The notes under the pieces: generated by a model
What the model was told of the DNA's origin: nothing
Databases searched by the model: none
The model's input: only the letters and a program-made list of their open reading frames with translations
Translations under genes and position numbers: made by a program
From: Marinoscillum sp.
GTDB lineage: Bacteria; Bacteroidota; Bacteroidia; Cytophagales; Cyclobacteriaceae
Direction of reading: 5' to 3'
Assembly (NCBI GenBank): GCA_024305105.1
Contig: JAMWZA010000009.1
Span: forward strand, 1 to 64,000
DNA length: 64,000 nt
Shown here: one piece after another, positions 3,477 to 20,130 of the stretch
Layout: the number at the start of each line of letters is the position of its first letter
Position numbering within the stretch: the first letter of the stretch is position 1

Positions 3477-3841
3477 TTTCGTTTCTTTTTTCGTTCAAAG
3501 CCTGCCTGCCGGTAGGCAAGGTATTCAGTCCTTATTTGTTCGGCTTTCTCAATCTCTTTCGGACTAATCTTGTCCGTTTTCTTGACAAAACCATGAGTTC
3601 CACAAACCAGTGTCATTTGGTTGTTCTCCTTGTCCCAAAAAGCAAGAACCCTATACTGAAGTCCTGCGTACTTGGTTCGGAATTCCCAAATGTTCTGATT
3701 TAGCTTTTTGAAAAGCTTGGGGTCATTCAACACTTGAGCTTTTCGAATATTGTAGAGTATCTTGTTTTGAACTTTATCATTTTGGCTCTTGATAAATCCG
3801 AATGCCTCTTCCAATAATTTGATCTCAAACTTTTTCTCCAC
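3473..3841 (-). CDS. RelE/ParE superfamily toxin (HigB/Gp49-like)
   Basis: A 122-residue basic protein of the phage-derived Gp49-like/HigB group: KLFKKLNQNIWEFRTKYAGLQYRVLAFWDKENNQMTLVCGTHGFVKKTDKISPKEIEKAEQIR, given here in order rather than as one block, spans about residues 43-106. The pattern WEFR...YRVLAFWD...HGFVKKT is diagnostic for the toxin fold, a ribosome-dependent or free mRNase. Toxin-first order and a 4-base overlap with the XRE gene fit HigBA. The start is GTG at 3841. The last 15 or so residues (AYRQAGFERKKKRK) are encoded partly by a palindromic repeat, so the C terminus may have been altered by its insertion. Confidence 0.85.
   Translation of the reverse strand: MEKKFEIKLLEEAFGFIKSQNDKVQNKILYNIRKAQVLNDPKLFKKLNQNIWEFRTKYAGLQYRVLAFWDKENNQMTLVCGTHGFVKKTDKISPKEIEKAEQIRTEYLAYRQAGFERKKKRK
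3504..3517. repeat. Palindromic GCCTGCCGGTAGGC element inside toxin gene
   Basis: A near-perfect palindrome with central CCGG, preceded by a CCTG direct repeat (CCTGCCTGCCGG). I know similar CTACCGGCAGGCAGG-type sequences as dispersed short repeats in Bacteroidota. Here it lies within the 3' coding end of the toxin, so it either inserted there or is tolerated as coding sequence. Confidence 0.4.
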
Positions 3842-4183: not shown

Positions 4184-4388
4184 GGCTCAAAACTGCAGTT
4201 TTGGTGTTTTCTAATCTTCCGGATAGCCCACAACTCCAGGTCTGGGCATTCTTACACCTCCAGAAAGCAGAAAACTCCAGTTTTGGGCATTCCTGAATTT
4301 CCGGAAGGTAGCCAACTCCAGTTTTGAACGTTCCTACGCCACGGGAGACGTAAAATCTCCAGTTTTGATCAAAGTCAATAAGCTAGAA
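4184..4388. repeat. 41-bp degenerate tandem repeat, 5 units
   Basis: Five consecutive 41-base units (4184, 4225, 4266, 4307, 4348) sharing AACTCCAGTTTTG at positions 9-21 of the unit and TTCCGGAA-like ends. No length variation is seen. The array is not coding: it has stop codons in most frames, and the minus frame across it has no start context. It sits in the same position relative to the end palindromes as the 21-bp array of island 1. Confidence 0.75.
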
Positions 4389-14500: not shown

Positions 14501-15970
14501 ATGCTAAAGAACTATATCTTATCCTCCATCCGGAGTTTGAAGAAGAAGCTGGGTTTCACTCTAGTCAACATTATCGGACTAGCTCTGGGAATGTCCACCT
14601 GTCTGATTATATACCTTTATGTGGATAGGGATTTGTCTTACGACGACTTTCAAAAAGACAATGTCTACCGAATTGCATTAGATCGCATTTACCCTGAGCG
14701 TCATGTGGAATACGCATTCATCCCACATTCTATAGGTCCGCAAATGGTGCTTGACTTCCCCGAAGTAAGCAACCAATCACGGTTTTTCAAAGCGTTCACA
14801 ACTACGACGGTTCGATACGAAGAAGACAACTACTCTGAAGAAAATGTGGTATTTGCAGATAGCACCATTTTCGATGTGATGAGCGTTAGGATGATACAAG
14901 GTGATGCCAATACGGCGCTAAGAGATCCAAACTCGGTCGTTATTAATGAACATACGGCCAAAAAGATTTTCGGCTCAGCAGAAGAGGCAATGGGCAAATT
15001 CCTGACAATCGGCAATGGGGCACCAGCTGAAGTTACCGGTGTAACCAAAGACTATCCGGAAACCTCTCATTTTGAGTTCGATTACCTCACGCCACTCCAT
15101 GCCCTTGATTTCTTTAACCAACCCAACTGGCTGGGCTTCTCGGCGCTCACCTATATTCAAATAGAAGGTGAAGTGAATGAAGCTGCTTTCGAAGAGCGGA
15201 TCCAGCAAATGATCCAGCAATACGCCGAAGGGCAGATGCAGGCAAGAAATGGCATTTCTTATGATGAATACATTGCAGCCGGCAATGGATATGATTATTT
15301 CTTACAGCCCATAAAAGACATTCACTTACACTCCCATCTGGAAGGTGAGATGAAGGCGAACGGCAACATCACCTATATTTATATTTTCTCCATTGTAGCT
15401 GTTTTCATCCTGATTATCGCTTGCATCAATTTCATGAATCTCTCTACCGCTCGCTCCACCGAACGGGGAAAAGAAGTGGGCATTCGCAAGGTTTTGGGTT
15501 CCGCTAAAGAACAATTAATCGGACAATTTCTGACAGAATCTGTGATCATCACCATCATCAGTGCAGCTGTGGCACTAACACTGACTTTTTTCTGTCTACC
15601 CTTCTTTAATGATGTCACGGGATCACCACTGAGCATGATCCAACTACTGAATCCAATAGCACTTGGTGCGATTGCTTTGATCATATTGGTCATTGGTTTC
15701 CTGGCAGGTGCGTACCCTGCATTCGTTATTTCATCGTACAAACCCGTGGCAGTACTAAAAGGCAAGTTGAAAACCTCCAGTAAAGGTGTTGGTTTACGAA
15801 ATGTACTGGTGGTCTTACAGTTTACCATCTCCATCGCATTGATCAGCGCCACCATGATCGTCTTCAACCAGATGAGCTTTATGCTCAATAAGCCTCTTGG
15901 GTTTGAGGAAAACAACATCGTGGTGATTGAAAATGCTTTTGCCATAAACAACTTGGTGCGATTGCTTTGA
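14501..15970 (+). CDS. ABC transporter permease (FtsX/MacB type), N-terminal part, frameshifted
   Basis: 489 residues. TM1 is at about 18-40 (GFTLVNIIGLALGMSTCLIIYLY). It is followed by a MacB_PCD periplasmic domain and then the first FtsX domain with three TM helices (about 290-420; conserved ERGKEVGIRKVLGSAKEQLI). The second half begins normally (NVLVVLQFTISIALISATMI), but the frame breaks at 15951 where a 290-bp unit is repeated, and it ends at TGA 15968-15970. Removing one repeat copy joins this frame to the next one into an 814-residue permease, a normal length for this Bacteroidota family. No ATPase gene is adjacent. Confidence 0.85.
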   Translation: MLKNYILSSIRSLKKKLGFTLVNIIGLALGMSTCLIIYLYVDRDLSYDDFQKDNVYRIALDRIYPERHVEYAFIPHSIGPQMVLDFPEVSNQSRFFKAFTTTTVRYEEDNYSEENVVFADSTIFDVMSVRMIQGDANTALRDPNSVVINEHTAKKIFGSAEEAMGKFLTIGNGAPAEVTGVTKDYPETSHFEFDYLTPLHALDFFNQPNWLGFSALTYIQIEGEVNEAAFEERIQQMIQQYAEGQMQARNGISYDEYIAAGNGYDYFLQPIKDIHLHSHLEGEMKANGNITYIYIFSIVAVFILIIACINFMNLSTARSTERGKEVGIRKVLGSAKEQLIGQFLTESVIITIISAAVALTLTFFCLPFFNDVTGSPLSMIQLLNPIALGAIALIILVIGFLAGAYPAFVISSYKPVAVLKGKLKTSSKGVGLRNVLVVLQFTISIALISATMIVFNQMSFMLNKPLGFEENNIVVIENAFAINNLVRLL

Positions 15971-16240
15971 TCATATTGGTCATTGGTTTCCTGGCAGGTG
16001 CGTACCCTGCATTCGTTATTTCATCGTACAAACCCGTGGCAGTACTAAAAGGCAAGTTGAAAACCTCCAGTAAAGGTGTTGGTTTACGAAATGTACTGGT
16101 GGTCTTACAGTTTACCATCTCCATCGCATTGATCAGCGCCACCATGATCGTCTTCAACCAGATGAGCTTTATGCTCAATAAGCCTCTTGGGTTTGAGGAA
16201 AACAACATCGTGGTGATTGAAAATGCTTTTGCCATAAACA
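15661..16240 (+). repeat. Perfect 290-bp direct tandem duplication within permease gene
   Basis: Copy 1 is 15661-15950 and copy 2 is 15951-16240. I compared them block by block and found no difference. Copy 1 starts with ACTTGG, and AC also follows copy 2, so there is a 2-base microhomology at the junction. 290 is not a multiple of 3, so the duplication shifts the frame. Both copies are full coding sequence for the end of FtsX domain 1 and the start of the second half. Identity implies a very recent event or an assembly error. Confidence 0.95.
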
Positions 16241-17235
16241 ACACAACCAATGAAGTTAACTGGGAACGATATGAAACGTTTAAAAATGAATTAAACAGGC
16301 TACCAAACATCGAGTCAAGTGCGTTAACCACTGCAATGCCGGGCGATATACTTCCAGGTTATATTGTCAGAGTTCCGGGCGATACAGAGAAAGAGAGCAT
16401 GGTAACCAGAAACCTCAGCTTCGATGACGATATCGTGGAAACATTGGGCCTGAAGCTACAAGAGGGTCGTTTTTTCTCCAGTGAGTACAATGACAGCTTA
16501 TCTACGATCCTAAACGCTTCGGCGATAGCAAAGCTTGGTATCAATGATCCGATAGGCAAGAAAATCATCAATGTAAATAACAACAATGAGTCTGTGGAAT
16601 ACACGATCATCGGAGTGGTAGAGGATTTTCATTTTCAATCGCTACATGTAGAAATGGAGCCTGTAGCGATTACCAGCATGCAATCACAGAATGCGTTTCC
16701 AGCGAAAATAGTTATGAAGATTGCTGCTAACAATACGAAAAACACCCTTGCATCTATCGAAAACAAGTGGAATGAATTCGCACCACAAGCTTCATTTCAG
16801 TCGTACTTTTTAGATACGGATTTGGAGACATTCTATGAGTCTGAAAAAACGACCGGCAGAATTTTTGGAATATTTACATTCCTGGCCATCGTTATTGCGT
16901 GCGTGGGTTTACTGGGCCTTTCCGCATTCATCATCAATCAGCGGGTAAAAGAGATTGGTGTACGCAAAGTACTGGGAGCCTCCACTCCATCTATTGTATT
17001 GCTTTTATCCAAAGACTTCACTAAACTGATTTTGATCTCCGCCATAATTGCCATTCCAATCTCGTATTACTACATGAACCAGTGGGTCGAAGGATTTGCG
17101 TATGCATCAAGCATTAGCTGGTTAACATTCCTGGTGGCTGGAGTCATTGCGCTAAGCATTGGACTCATTACCATTAGCTTCCAATCGGTCAAAGCAGCAC
17201 TCATGAATCCGGTCAATGCACTGAAGGATGAATAA
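15967..17235 (+). CDS. ABC transporter permease (FtsX/MacB type), C-terminal part
   Basis: 422 residues if started at TTG 15967, which overlaps the stop of the upstream part as TTGA and could allow termination-reinitiation. The frame reads the second copy of the duplicated segment (GFLAGAYPAFVISSYKPVAVLKGKLK), then the second MacB_PCD domain, then the last FtsX domain with three TM helices and the family signature (FIINQRVKEIGVRKVLGAS). It ends with the typical SFQSVKAALMNPVNALKDE tail. There is no good ribosome-binding site of its own, so expression without coupling is doubtful. It belongs with 14501-15970 as one broken gene. Confidence 0.8.
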   Translation: MIILVIGFLAGAYPAFVISSYKPVAVLKGKLKTSSKGVGLRNVLVVLQFTISIALISATMIVFNQMSFMLNKPLGFEENNIVVIENAFAINNTTNEVNWERYETFKNELNRLPNIESSALTTAMPGDILPGYIVRVPGDTEKESMVTRNLSFDDDIVETLGLKLQEGRFFSSEYNDSLSTILNASAIAKLGINDPIGKKIINVNNNNESVEYTIIGVVEDFHFQSLHVEMEPVAITSMQSQNAFPAKIVMKIAANNTKNTLASIENKWNEFAPQASFQSYFLDTDLETFYESEKTTGRIFGIFTFLAIVIACVGLLGLSAFIINQRVKEIGVRKVLGASTPSIVLLLSKDFTKLILISAIIAIPISYYYMNQWVEGFAYASSISWLTFLVAGVIALSIGLITISFQSVKAALMNPVNALKDE

Positions 17236-17416: not shown

Positions 17417-19282
17417 CTATTTTACAATCAATCTCGCTGCCTGGTAGTAATCCTTACCGCTTATCAAAACCATAAATAAGCCTGAAGACATTTTTGACAC
17501 ATCTATAGTCATTCCCTTTTTATGGATCACTCCTTGGTATTTGCACTCCAAAGTTTGATTCATGACCTCTATTTTCAAGACTTCATCATGAGAATTAAAA
17601 TACTCAATCATCTCATCAGTATCTTCAAAAGCAATGGTTATTTCGCTTTGAGCTGGATTAGGTGACACGAGAAAGGCAAATACCCCCTTTCCCCCACCGC
17701 ATAGTTGAGCACTGGATTTTGTCTGGAATGTAACAAAGGCCGCACTACCCGCTCCGCATTGATTTGTGGCTGCCAAACTAAACGTATATGTTTGATTCAA
17801 GGAAGTAGTAGATGTAGTAGTCATATCCACCCTTAATCTATTTGGATCATAATTAAAGGACACCCCCGTGGGACTGCTTCCAAACACCCAGGATGTAGTC
17901 ATACCACTTGCTCCTACGTCTGAAAAATAAGTAGGCCATGGCTCTACAAAATACTGAACAGTCGATGGTACGACTACACAGGACGGCCCAACAATATTAT
18001 CAGGGGATAGACCGGTAGGTCGTCCAACCCAAACATTCTTTTGCAAAGTAATATTGCCACAATCTCCGCTTATGGTGGCTGTGAGTATTCCCTGACCACT
18101 GGATGTGGAACTAGTCGCTCTCGTAGTAAAACTACTCCCTGTACCTGTGTCCACAGCAAAAAGGTTAGCAGGGGAAACTGACCAGGACACAGAGACTCCA
18201 GTGGGTAGGTTTTGTAGGGTGAAGGCTTGGTTGGTGGTACAGAGAAGGGAGGGGCCCACTACAGCAGGAGGAATATTACATACCTGAGCAATCAAATCAC
18301 AATTAACAAAACTTTCACGTACTCCACCGGGCGCAAAAAGAGCTTGCATGCGTGTTGCTTGACCTTGAGTAAAAATATTCATACAATCATCATCGACATA
18401 GTCCATGTAATTCATGAACATATCATTTGACCCACAAGAAGAATGTGGATGAGATGGGCAGTCCACATTTGGACTATCCTGGGTAGGAGTGTCTCCAACA
18501 AAATCATTACCACAATTAGCATCTCCCCAAATGTGTCGCAGATTAAGCCAATGCCCTACTTCATGAGTTGCTGTCCTGCCTTCATCAAAAGGGTCATCTA
18601 CATTTCCAGTACGTCCGAATGAAGTGGTGCGGATCACCACTCCATCTGTTTCTGGTTGAGTGACAAGCATATCTGGAAATTGAGCATAGCCAAGGAGTTC
18701 TTGACCTATTCCATTTTCTATTTCACCAGCAACCCACATATTCAGATATCTATCGGATGGCCAGGCATTGCTACCTCCGTTATTGTTAAATTTTACGTTG
18801 TCTAAATCTGAGCGAAAAGTATTTACATTGGTCAGAACTCTTACGATTCCATTTGTTGGGTTACTATTTGGATCCAAACAAGCCAATACAAATTCAAACT
18901 CCGAGTCTGCCGCTACTCCTTGGAAAGCTGAAGGCGTATTGGAAGCATCTGCATTGAGTAGACGAAAGTCTTCATTGAGCACATCTATCTGTGACTGGAT
19001 TTGCGCCATGCTGATGTTTAGCCCTGAGCCCACGGACTGACCCGTATGCAACACATGGACGACTACTGGGATGGTAATTACGTTGCTTTGTGACAACATA
19101 CTTAAGTTTCTTTGGTTGGCAAAGTTTGCAACCTGTTGATCTATCTGCATGATGCGCTGGTAGCGCTCCGGGTCATTTTGCTGAATAGCCAGTAAATCTA
19201 ACTGCGAGCCGCAGGTTCGCTGAGCAGAAGTCTCTGTGGTAAGTAATAATATTAAGTAGGCGAGTGATAGTATAAATTTCAT
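17417..19282 (-). CDS. Secreted M43-type zinc metalloprotease with T9SS sorting domain
   Basis: 621 residues. The signal peptide ends at about residue 20 (TSAQ). The catalytic domain (about 70-330) carries HEVGHWLNLRH at 240-250, the extended metzincin motif HExxHxxxxxH followed by IWGD, and a Met-turn region FMNYMDYVDDDCMNIF, as in the cytophagalysin/pappalysin (M43) family. It is followed by Ig/PKD-like beta domains (about 340-530). The C-terminal part (VSPNPAQSEITI ... ASGLF/SSGLFMVLISG ... ARLIVK) is a type A T9SS sorting domain. It is therefore predicted to cross the outer membrane through the type IX system and be anchored or released. It overlaps by 4 bases the upstream lipoprotein gene and is probably its operon partner. 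Confidence 0.92.
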   Translation of the reverse strand: MKFILSLAYLILLLTTETSAQRTCGSQLDLLAIQQNDPERYQRIMQIDQQVANFANQRNLSMLSQSNVITIPVVVHVLHTGQSVGSGLNISMAQIQSQIDVLNEDFRLLNADASNTPSAFQGVAADSEFEFVLACLDPNSNPTNGIVRVLTNVNTFRSDLDNVKFNNNGGSNAWPSDRYLNMWVAGEIENGIGQELLGYAQFPDMLVTQPETDGVVIRTTSFGRTGNVDDPFDEGRTATHEVGHWLNLRHIWGDANCGNDFVGDTPTQDSPNVDCPSHPHSSCGSNDMFMNYMDYVDDDCMNIFTQGQATRMQALFAPGGVRESFVNCDLIAQVCNIPPAVVGPSLLCTTNQAFTLQNLPTGVSVSWSVSPANLFAVDTGTGSSFTTRATSSTSSGQGILTATISGDCGNITLQKNVWVGRPTGLSPDNIVGPSCVVVPSTVQYFVEPWPTYFSDVGASGMTTSWVFGSSPTGVSFNYDPNRLRVDMTTTSTTSLNQTYTFSLAATNQCGAGSAAFVTFQTKSSAQLCGGGKGVFAFLVSPNPAQSEITIAFEDTDEMIEYFNSHDEVLKIEVMNQTLECKYQGVIHKKGMTIDVSKMSSGLFMVLISGKDYYQAARLIVK

Positions 19283-19659
19283 TTTGAATTATCGGTTAGT
19301 TGTTCTATAGAAGAAATTTCAAACTTGCAACCGAAGGAAGTTCTTAGGGTTGGAAGTGTTAACTGATCACAACAACTAGTCTTATTTCCTGAGATAATCA
19401 CAATTCTCTCATCAATTTGTAGATTTTTAGGTATGAATCCACAAGGAACAAGGATATTGTTAGAGCCAATTCTATATCCTGGATTTATCAGTGATGTAGA
19501 ATCAGTTGTCAGAACAAATTGACCATTAAAATCAATTACTTTGGCTTTAACATTAGATAAGTGACCCACGATCTGCATATTTCTACAATCGTCTTCGTCT
19601 TCACAACCTGTACTCATTATCAAAAGAAACAAGATGCTTAAGTACACTAGCTTTTCCAT
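19279..19659 (-). CDS. Small Cys-rich lipoprotein next to protease (paralogue A)
   Basis: 126 residues. Lipoprotein signal MEKLVYLSILFLLIMSTGC with Cys19 as the likely lipidated residue, then an acidic EDEDD stretch. The C-terminal third reads CCDQLTLPTLRTSFGCKFEI followed by SSIEQL. It shares the CC..LT.P..RTSFGCKFEI.SIE pattern with the next gene upstream. Its last 4 bases overlap the protease start, so translation is probably coupled. The family is unknown to me. An inhibitor, chaperone or anchoring partner of the protease is a guess from position only. Confidence 0.75.
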   Translation of the reverse strand: MEKLVYLSILFLLIMSTGCEDEDDCRNMQIVGHLSNVKAKVIDFNGQFVLTTDSTSLINPGYRIGSNNILVPCGFIPKNLQIDERIVIISGNKTSCCDQLTLPTLRTSFGCKFEISSIEQLTDNSK

Positions 19660-19695
19660 CGTTGTATTCTTAAGTTTAAAGATTTTCTTTTCATT

Positions 19696-20130
19696 TTACT
19701 TATCAGATAGCAATTCAATCGAAGTAATTTCAAATTTGCAGCCAAAGGAAGTTCGGACATTAGGTTGTGTCAGTAAATTGCAACACGCAATTCTCGTACC
19801 CGAGAAGGTTACCGCAATACTATCATCCATGAAACTACCCAATAGATTTTGGCAAGGTATTAATAGTTCATTATCTTTTGCTAAGATTACAAACAAGCTA
19901 TATGGTTCAACTTTCCCAGAAGGATTCTCAGGAATAAAATCATAGGATTCACCGTTGGGGTTGTGACCAATTACGAGTTCCCTTATTACCCCAGACTCAT
20001 TACTATAGATTTCTTTTGTTTCTTCATCTTCACATGTTACCTCTAAACATTCAATATGACTCTCGTCTTTCTCGCATCCTGTGTTTATCATTACAATAAA
20101 TAGGATTACTAGTCGTATTGATCTTTCCAT
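19696..20130 (-). CDS. Small Cys-rich lipoprotein (paralogue B)
   Basis: 144 residues. Signal MERSIRLVILFIVMINTGC, lipidated Cys expected at 19, then an acidic stretch with two more Cys. The C terminus ACCNLLTQPNVRTSFGCKFE-ITSIELLSDK is nearly the same as in the neighbouring 126-residue lipoprotein, showing a tandem gene duplication with divergent N-terminal halves. First gene of the lipoprotein-lipoprotein-protease unit on the minus strand. No known family recognised. Confidence 0.75.
   Translation of the reverse strand: MERSIRLVILFIVMINTGCEKDESHIECLEVTCEDEETKEIYSNESGVIRELVIGHNPNGESYDFIPENPSGKVEPYSLFVILAKDNELLIPCQNLLGSFMDDSIAVTFSGTRIACCNLLTQPNVRTSFGCKFEITSIELLSDK

Follow-up and report, generated by a model that had tools for sequence, protein, structure and literature searches.

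A perfect 290-bp tandem duplication breaks an ADOP-like permease gene in a draft genome of Marinoscillum sp.

Phase variation through spontaneous duplications inside pneumococcal capsule genes (the type 3 locus, cap8E/wchA and tts) is said to have been described by Waite et al. in 2001 and 2003, to go by the titles of these works. The available part of PMC4022640 presents a tandem duplication within an open reading frame as inactivating a pneumococcal capsule gene and as able to revert, and the tandem repeats discussed there measure up to 9 bp. In B. pertussis, the gene of the manganese exporter BP3410 is silenced by a perfect 30-bp tandem duplication and restored by its loss; almost 98% of the sequenced strains are reported to carry the duplication and congeneric species to lack it, and the text available from this source gives a frequency of about 1e-6 for survivors lacking it under selection and no regain in dozens of clones (PMC8546581). 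As to mechanism, RecA-dependent and RecA-independent routes of repeat loss, the latter including slippage and annealing, are described in the available part of a work devoted to Deinococcus and its spaced repeats, which also comments on E. coli tandem repeats (PMC4627823). PMC13410964, in the part available, concerns homopolymer slippage and IS elements, not a duplication, and a literature search found, by title and the beginning of the abstract, no report of a reverting internal tandem duplication in a Bacteroidetes permease among the records listed.

The window, a 64,000-nt stretch of contig JAMWZA010000009.1 of Marinoscillum sp., carries two predicted genes, ORF1 and ORF2 (Table 1), which are one FtsX/MacB-type (ADOP-like) permease gene of 814 codons broken by a duplication. 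The profile of the ADOP family duplicated permease of the MacB/FtsX superfamily, TIGR03434 (803 positions), is covered by ORF1 from 8 to 463 and by ORF2 from 374 to 803, and a MacB_PCD and an FtsX domain are found in each half, both halves being collinear with the profile. Unlike the one-chain form, the window gene is spread over two frames, and the halves, which were scored separately, reach 158.2 (ORF1) and 191.9 (ORF2) bits against a curated cut-off of 622.3 bits set for the whole protein. With one copy taken out, the 2735 nt become 2445 nt, that is, 814 codons plus the stop, and no internal stop interrupts the three pieces (386, 97 and 331 aa) that make up this frame. The duplicated unit spans TM4, the linker and TM5, and its length of 290 bp is not divisible by three (remainder 2), which shifts the frame at the junction and results in the two frames, overlapping as TTGA. 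Hydropathy places TM1-5 in ORF1 and, in ORF2, a shortened TM4 followed by TM5-8 (overlapping TM5 peaks counted once), while the intact relative G004 gives eight peaks. ORF1 has 67 matches in its own genome, often two per gene, so the permease is one of many related ones there. Nothing above shuffled sequences was found in the promoter and terminator scan.

Table 1 Features of the broken permease gene in the window
Feature	Position	Strand
ORF1, 489 aa: ADOP-like permease, first half with MacB_PCD and FtsX, and TM5; 5-residue frameshifted tail, TGA	14501..15970	+
Perfect tandem duplication, first 290-bp copy (region of TM4, linker and TM5)	15661..15950	+
Perfect tandem duplication, second 290-bp copy	15951..16240	+
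ORF2, 422 aa, TTG start: shortened TM4, TM5, second MacB_PCD and FtsX	15967..17235	+
AC following the second copy; both copies begin with the same AC (2-bp microhomology)	16241..16242	+

The two copies are 100% identical, with 0 differences in 290 nt, and Tandem Repeats Finder reports 15661-16242 with a period of 290 and 100% matches. The exact self-match is 292 nt long with the AC included, and since the bases preceding the copies are unlike (c at 15660, a at 15950), the microhomology at the junction is 2 bp. An exact match of this length would be expected by chance in the window at about 1e-163, which is negligible, whereas 17% of the random junctions in the same window have a microhomology of at least 2 bp; the AC is thus within chance and uninformative on whether a real event or an artefact is seen. 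The preliminary description was accurate as to the perfect duplication, the AC microhomology, the TTGA overlap, the 814-codon gene obtained with one copy and the broken FtsX/MacB permease, although the microhomology and the TTGA overlap carry less evidential weight than was given to them there. Unlike the confirmed Salmonella duplications of PMC3411829, which had at least 11 bp of junction homology, the window junction has 2 bp; as that source, in its available part, states that its filter excluded junctions shorter than 7-9 bp and that events under 5 kb were classed as deletions, this weighs little against a 290-bp event. Adjacent direct copies, perfect or nearly so, inside a coding sequence are expected of an unstable intragenic tandem duplication and are seen here, and the window contains no N. 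Elsewhere in the window, a tandem repeat with a 41-bp unit (3.3 copies, 70% matches) is located at 4191-4326.

The locus resembles the pneumococcal capsule genes of PMC4022640 in having a tandem duplication within the open reading frame that would inactivate the gene, but in the pneumococcal case phase variation was reported in culture, while the gene described here codes for a permease and is known from one draft genome sequence. Like BP3410, as far as the available text of PMC8546581 describes it, it is a transporter gene with a perfect tandem duplication absent in the three closest relatives among the matches listed; unlike the 30-bp duplication of BP3410, the length of which is a multiple of three, the one in the window has 290 bp, shifts the frame and was found in one draft genome.

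The search covered 59 genomes including the own one, at least 57 of which had a match. The closest matches listed outside the own genome are in G004 (77-79% amino acid identity) and in G003 and G032 (56-62%), the genome search giving 79%, 57% and 57%, respectively. Each lies in one uninterrupted open frame, which has 828 codons in G004 (an ORF of 827 aa), 842 in G003 and 911 in G032. The part common to ORF1 and ORF2 maps to one and the same 273-nt stretch in each of these three closest orthologues among the matches listed, meaning that the segment is present there once, and the comparison with close relatives proposed earlier therefore gave a single copy in one long frame in three cases out of three. 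In G004, as in the window, the gene has two amidohydrolase genes to one side and, to the other, genes for an acyl-CoA dehydrogenase and a tryptophan-dioxygenase-like protein, with the neighbours compared as translations by eye and the window genes named by Pfam. In the window, an M43-type peptidase gene (with a sub-threshold match to a secretion tail) and two short ORFs at 17417-20130 separate the permease gene from that of the acyl-CoA dehydrogenase; G004 lacks them at the syntenic position, its flanking genes being 52 bp apart. Five further loci from named genomes, including Bacteroidales, Roseivirga and Cyclobacteriaceae records, show 36-40% identity, which is too distant for certain orthology, and all five are free of perfect tandems.

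The four gene pieces that were compared with G004 all lack stops, with dN of 0.12-0.16, and differences amount to 54-60% at third codon positions vs 6-10% at second ones. No decay was found elsewhere in the permease gene. Differences located mainly at third codon positions together with the lack of stops indicate that the break is either recent or artefactual, and the gene appears to have been under constraint until recently, or may still be. The dS values against G004 were beyond computation, which was read as saturation, so the break carries no date.

Fourteen permease loci of relatives with short frames or stops (L126-L139) were also analysed, and no diverged two-frame relative was seen among them. 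The sole lookalike is L126 (G007:C307), where two permease-like stretches meet at NN (3675-3676) and mimic a broken, partly duplicated permease; it was rejected since the stretches are 43% identical over 97 aa and the junction holds the NN. L129-L132, L135, L136 and L138 turned out to be at contig edges, L133 and L134 are single-half permeases, and L137 gave no match. ADOP-like permeases cut by frame breaks are found at L127 (G011:C68) and L128 (G040:C1), and at L139 (G010:C172) the frame of an ADOP-like permease is ended by a stop, one TAG, so broken members of this large family may be not rare. The scan of L126-L139 for perfect tandems gave only a repeat with an 8-bp unit near one end of L127.

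The own genome was scanned for tandem copies in 77 stretches, the window included, comprising 1,350,015 non-N bases out of 5,764,637 (23%), with exact words of 20 and a spacing of up to 3 kb, which covers perfect copies lying whole within a stretch. Besides the 290-bp unit, one 14-bp unit and no other perfect tandem was found there. A control scan of six stretches from G032, six from G034, five from G016 and three from G004 (399,957 non-N bases) gave one large-unit perfect array, in G032, and one 14-bp unit, in G034. The array consists of several exact tandem copies of a 642-bp unit at L142:16954-20000 (G032:C1) in a relative assembled as a single contig, showing that large perfect tandems are not unheard of in this family. 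An exact 803-bp direct repeat, with copies 3143 bp apart at L071:12572 and 15715 (G000:C1), was observed in the own genome.

The explanation we regard as the most probable, with some reserve, is a single recent illegitimate tandem duplication in an intact permease gene, that is, an unstable mutation and not an evolved switch. The other candidate of some weight, possible but clearly less likely, is that the segment occurs once in the genome and a 290-bp overlap was written twice by the assembler or a gap filler. The assembly is a draft of 296 contigs, and two gaps of 98-99 N in the sampled stretches lie at repeat-flanked places, which suggests that repeats were hard for the assembler; the perfect identity of the copies, the chance-level microhomology and the single copy in all three closest orthologues among the matches listed are compatible with such a slip, and the NN junction in G007, interpreted as two paralogues joined by scaffolding, indicates that such artefacts occur in this gene family. 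What speaks against it is a clean junction without N inside a contig of 68,190 bp and the fact that only one such event was met in the 23% of the genome sampled. As the 290-bp event stands alone above the 14-bp unit in 1.35 Mb, a systematic assembly fault is unlikely, a single slip being still compatible with this result. In addition, a de Bruijn assembler writes a junction only from reads across it, which would count against the slip provided that an assembler of this type was used. No second version of the permease locus is present on other contigs of the own genome. Taken together, this suggests that the duplication is real; by judgement and not by calculation, a real mutation is favoured over an assembly slip by about two to one.

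The remaining readings accept the duplication but ascribe a role to it. In the preliminary description an on/off state of the transporter was suggested, and an evolved phase variation in which the 290-bp copy is gained and lost could draw on the pneumococcal capsule genes, on the measurable rates at which perfect tandem repeats are lost and on the B. pertussis cells without the 30-bp duplication, which arose at about 1e-6 (PMC8546581). This suggestion was not supported, since no comparable perfect duplication was found in the scanned permease loci of relatives and of the own genome or in the other sampled own-genome stretches. The sample of loci scanned for recurrence was L002-L069 and L126-L139 (L002, L032 and L056 represent the window locus itself; of the 67 own-genome matches, 30 were covered as loci), and it contains no other perfect tandem of comparable unit; all three closest orthologues among the matches listed have a single copy. 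Moreover, with ends sharing 2 bp, regain of the same duplication should be rare and its loss one-way, and in B. pertussis too no regain is reported in dozens of clones in the available text of PMC8546581. The scans point neither to a systematic artefact nor to an evolved switch, and we consider the latter very improbable. Gene fission, with both overlapping frames translated, coupled through the TTGA and giving a two-subunit permease, seems equally improbable. Each half does retain its MacB_PCD and FtsX domains and a set of putative TM segments, and two-subunit members of the MacB/FtsX superfamily such as LolC/LolE exist. A 290-bp duplication simulated in the intact G004 gene, however, produced an NTGA stop/start overlap at 937 of 2074 placements, so the TTGA is no sign of coupling and was dropped as evidence; the TTG lies within former coding sequence, the copies are identical with no trace of adaptation, and a diverged two-frame structure was seen in no relative among the loci analysed. 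Still less probable is the idea that the split form, a two-subunit permease with TM4-TM5 in both halves, is favoured by selection, or that the split and one-chain forms alternate through copy loss; if this were true, one locus would give two architectures of one transporter.

Under the preferred explanation of a single recent duplication, a 290-bp illegitimate event with ends having only AC in common would have arisen within an intact 814-codon gene of an ADOP-like two-half permease, and owing to the frame shift at the junction the full-length permease would not be made. Loss of function in this isolate is most likely, judging by the reading frames of the gene, although the split products may have some function as each half retains both domains. 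The copies are perfect and adjacent, so one of them could be lost, and it is reasonable to suggest from the published behaviour of perfect tandem repeats that the duplication is reversible: loss of a copy through replication slippage, strand annealing or RecA recombination would leave some cells with a restored gene.

For annotation this means that the two predicted genes should be treated as one permease broken by a perfect duplication and not as two permeases, and that the gene should not be labelled a settled pseudogene before a read check. The kind of event is already known from the reverting intragenic tandem duplications of pneumococcal capsule genes and of B. pertussis BP3410. The duplication is seen in one draft genome and, if real, would represent one more natural transporter gene silenced by a self-undoing lesion.
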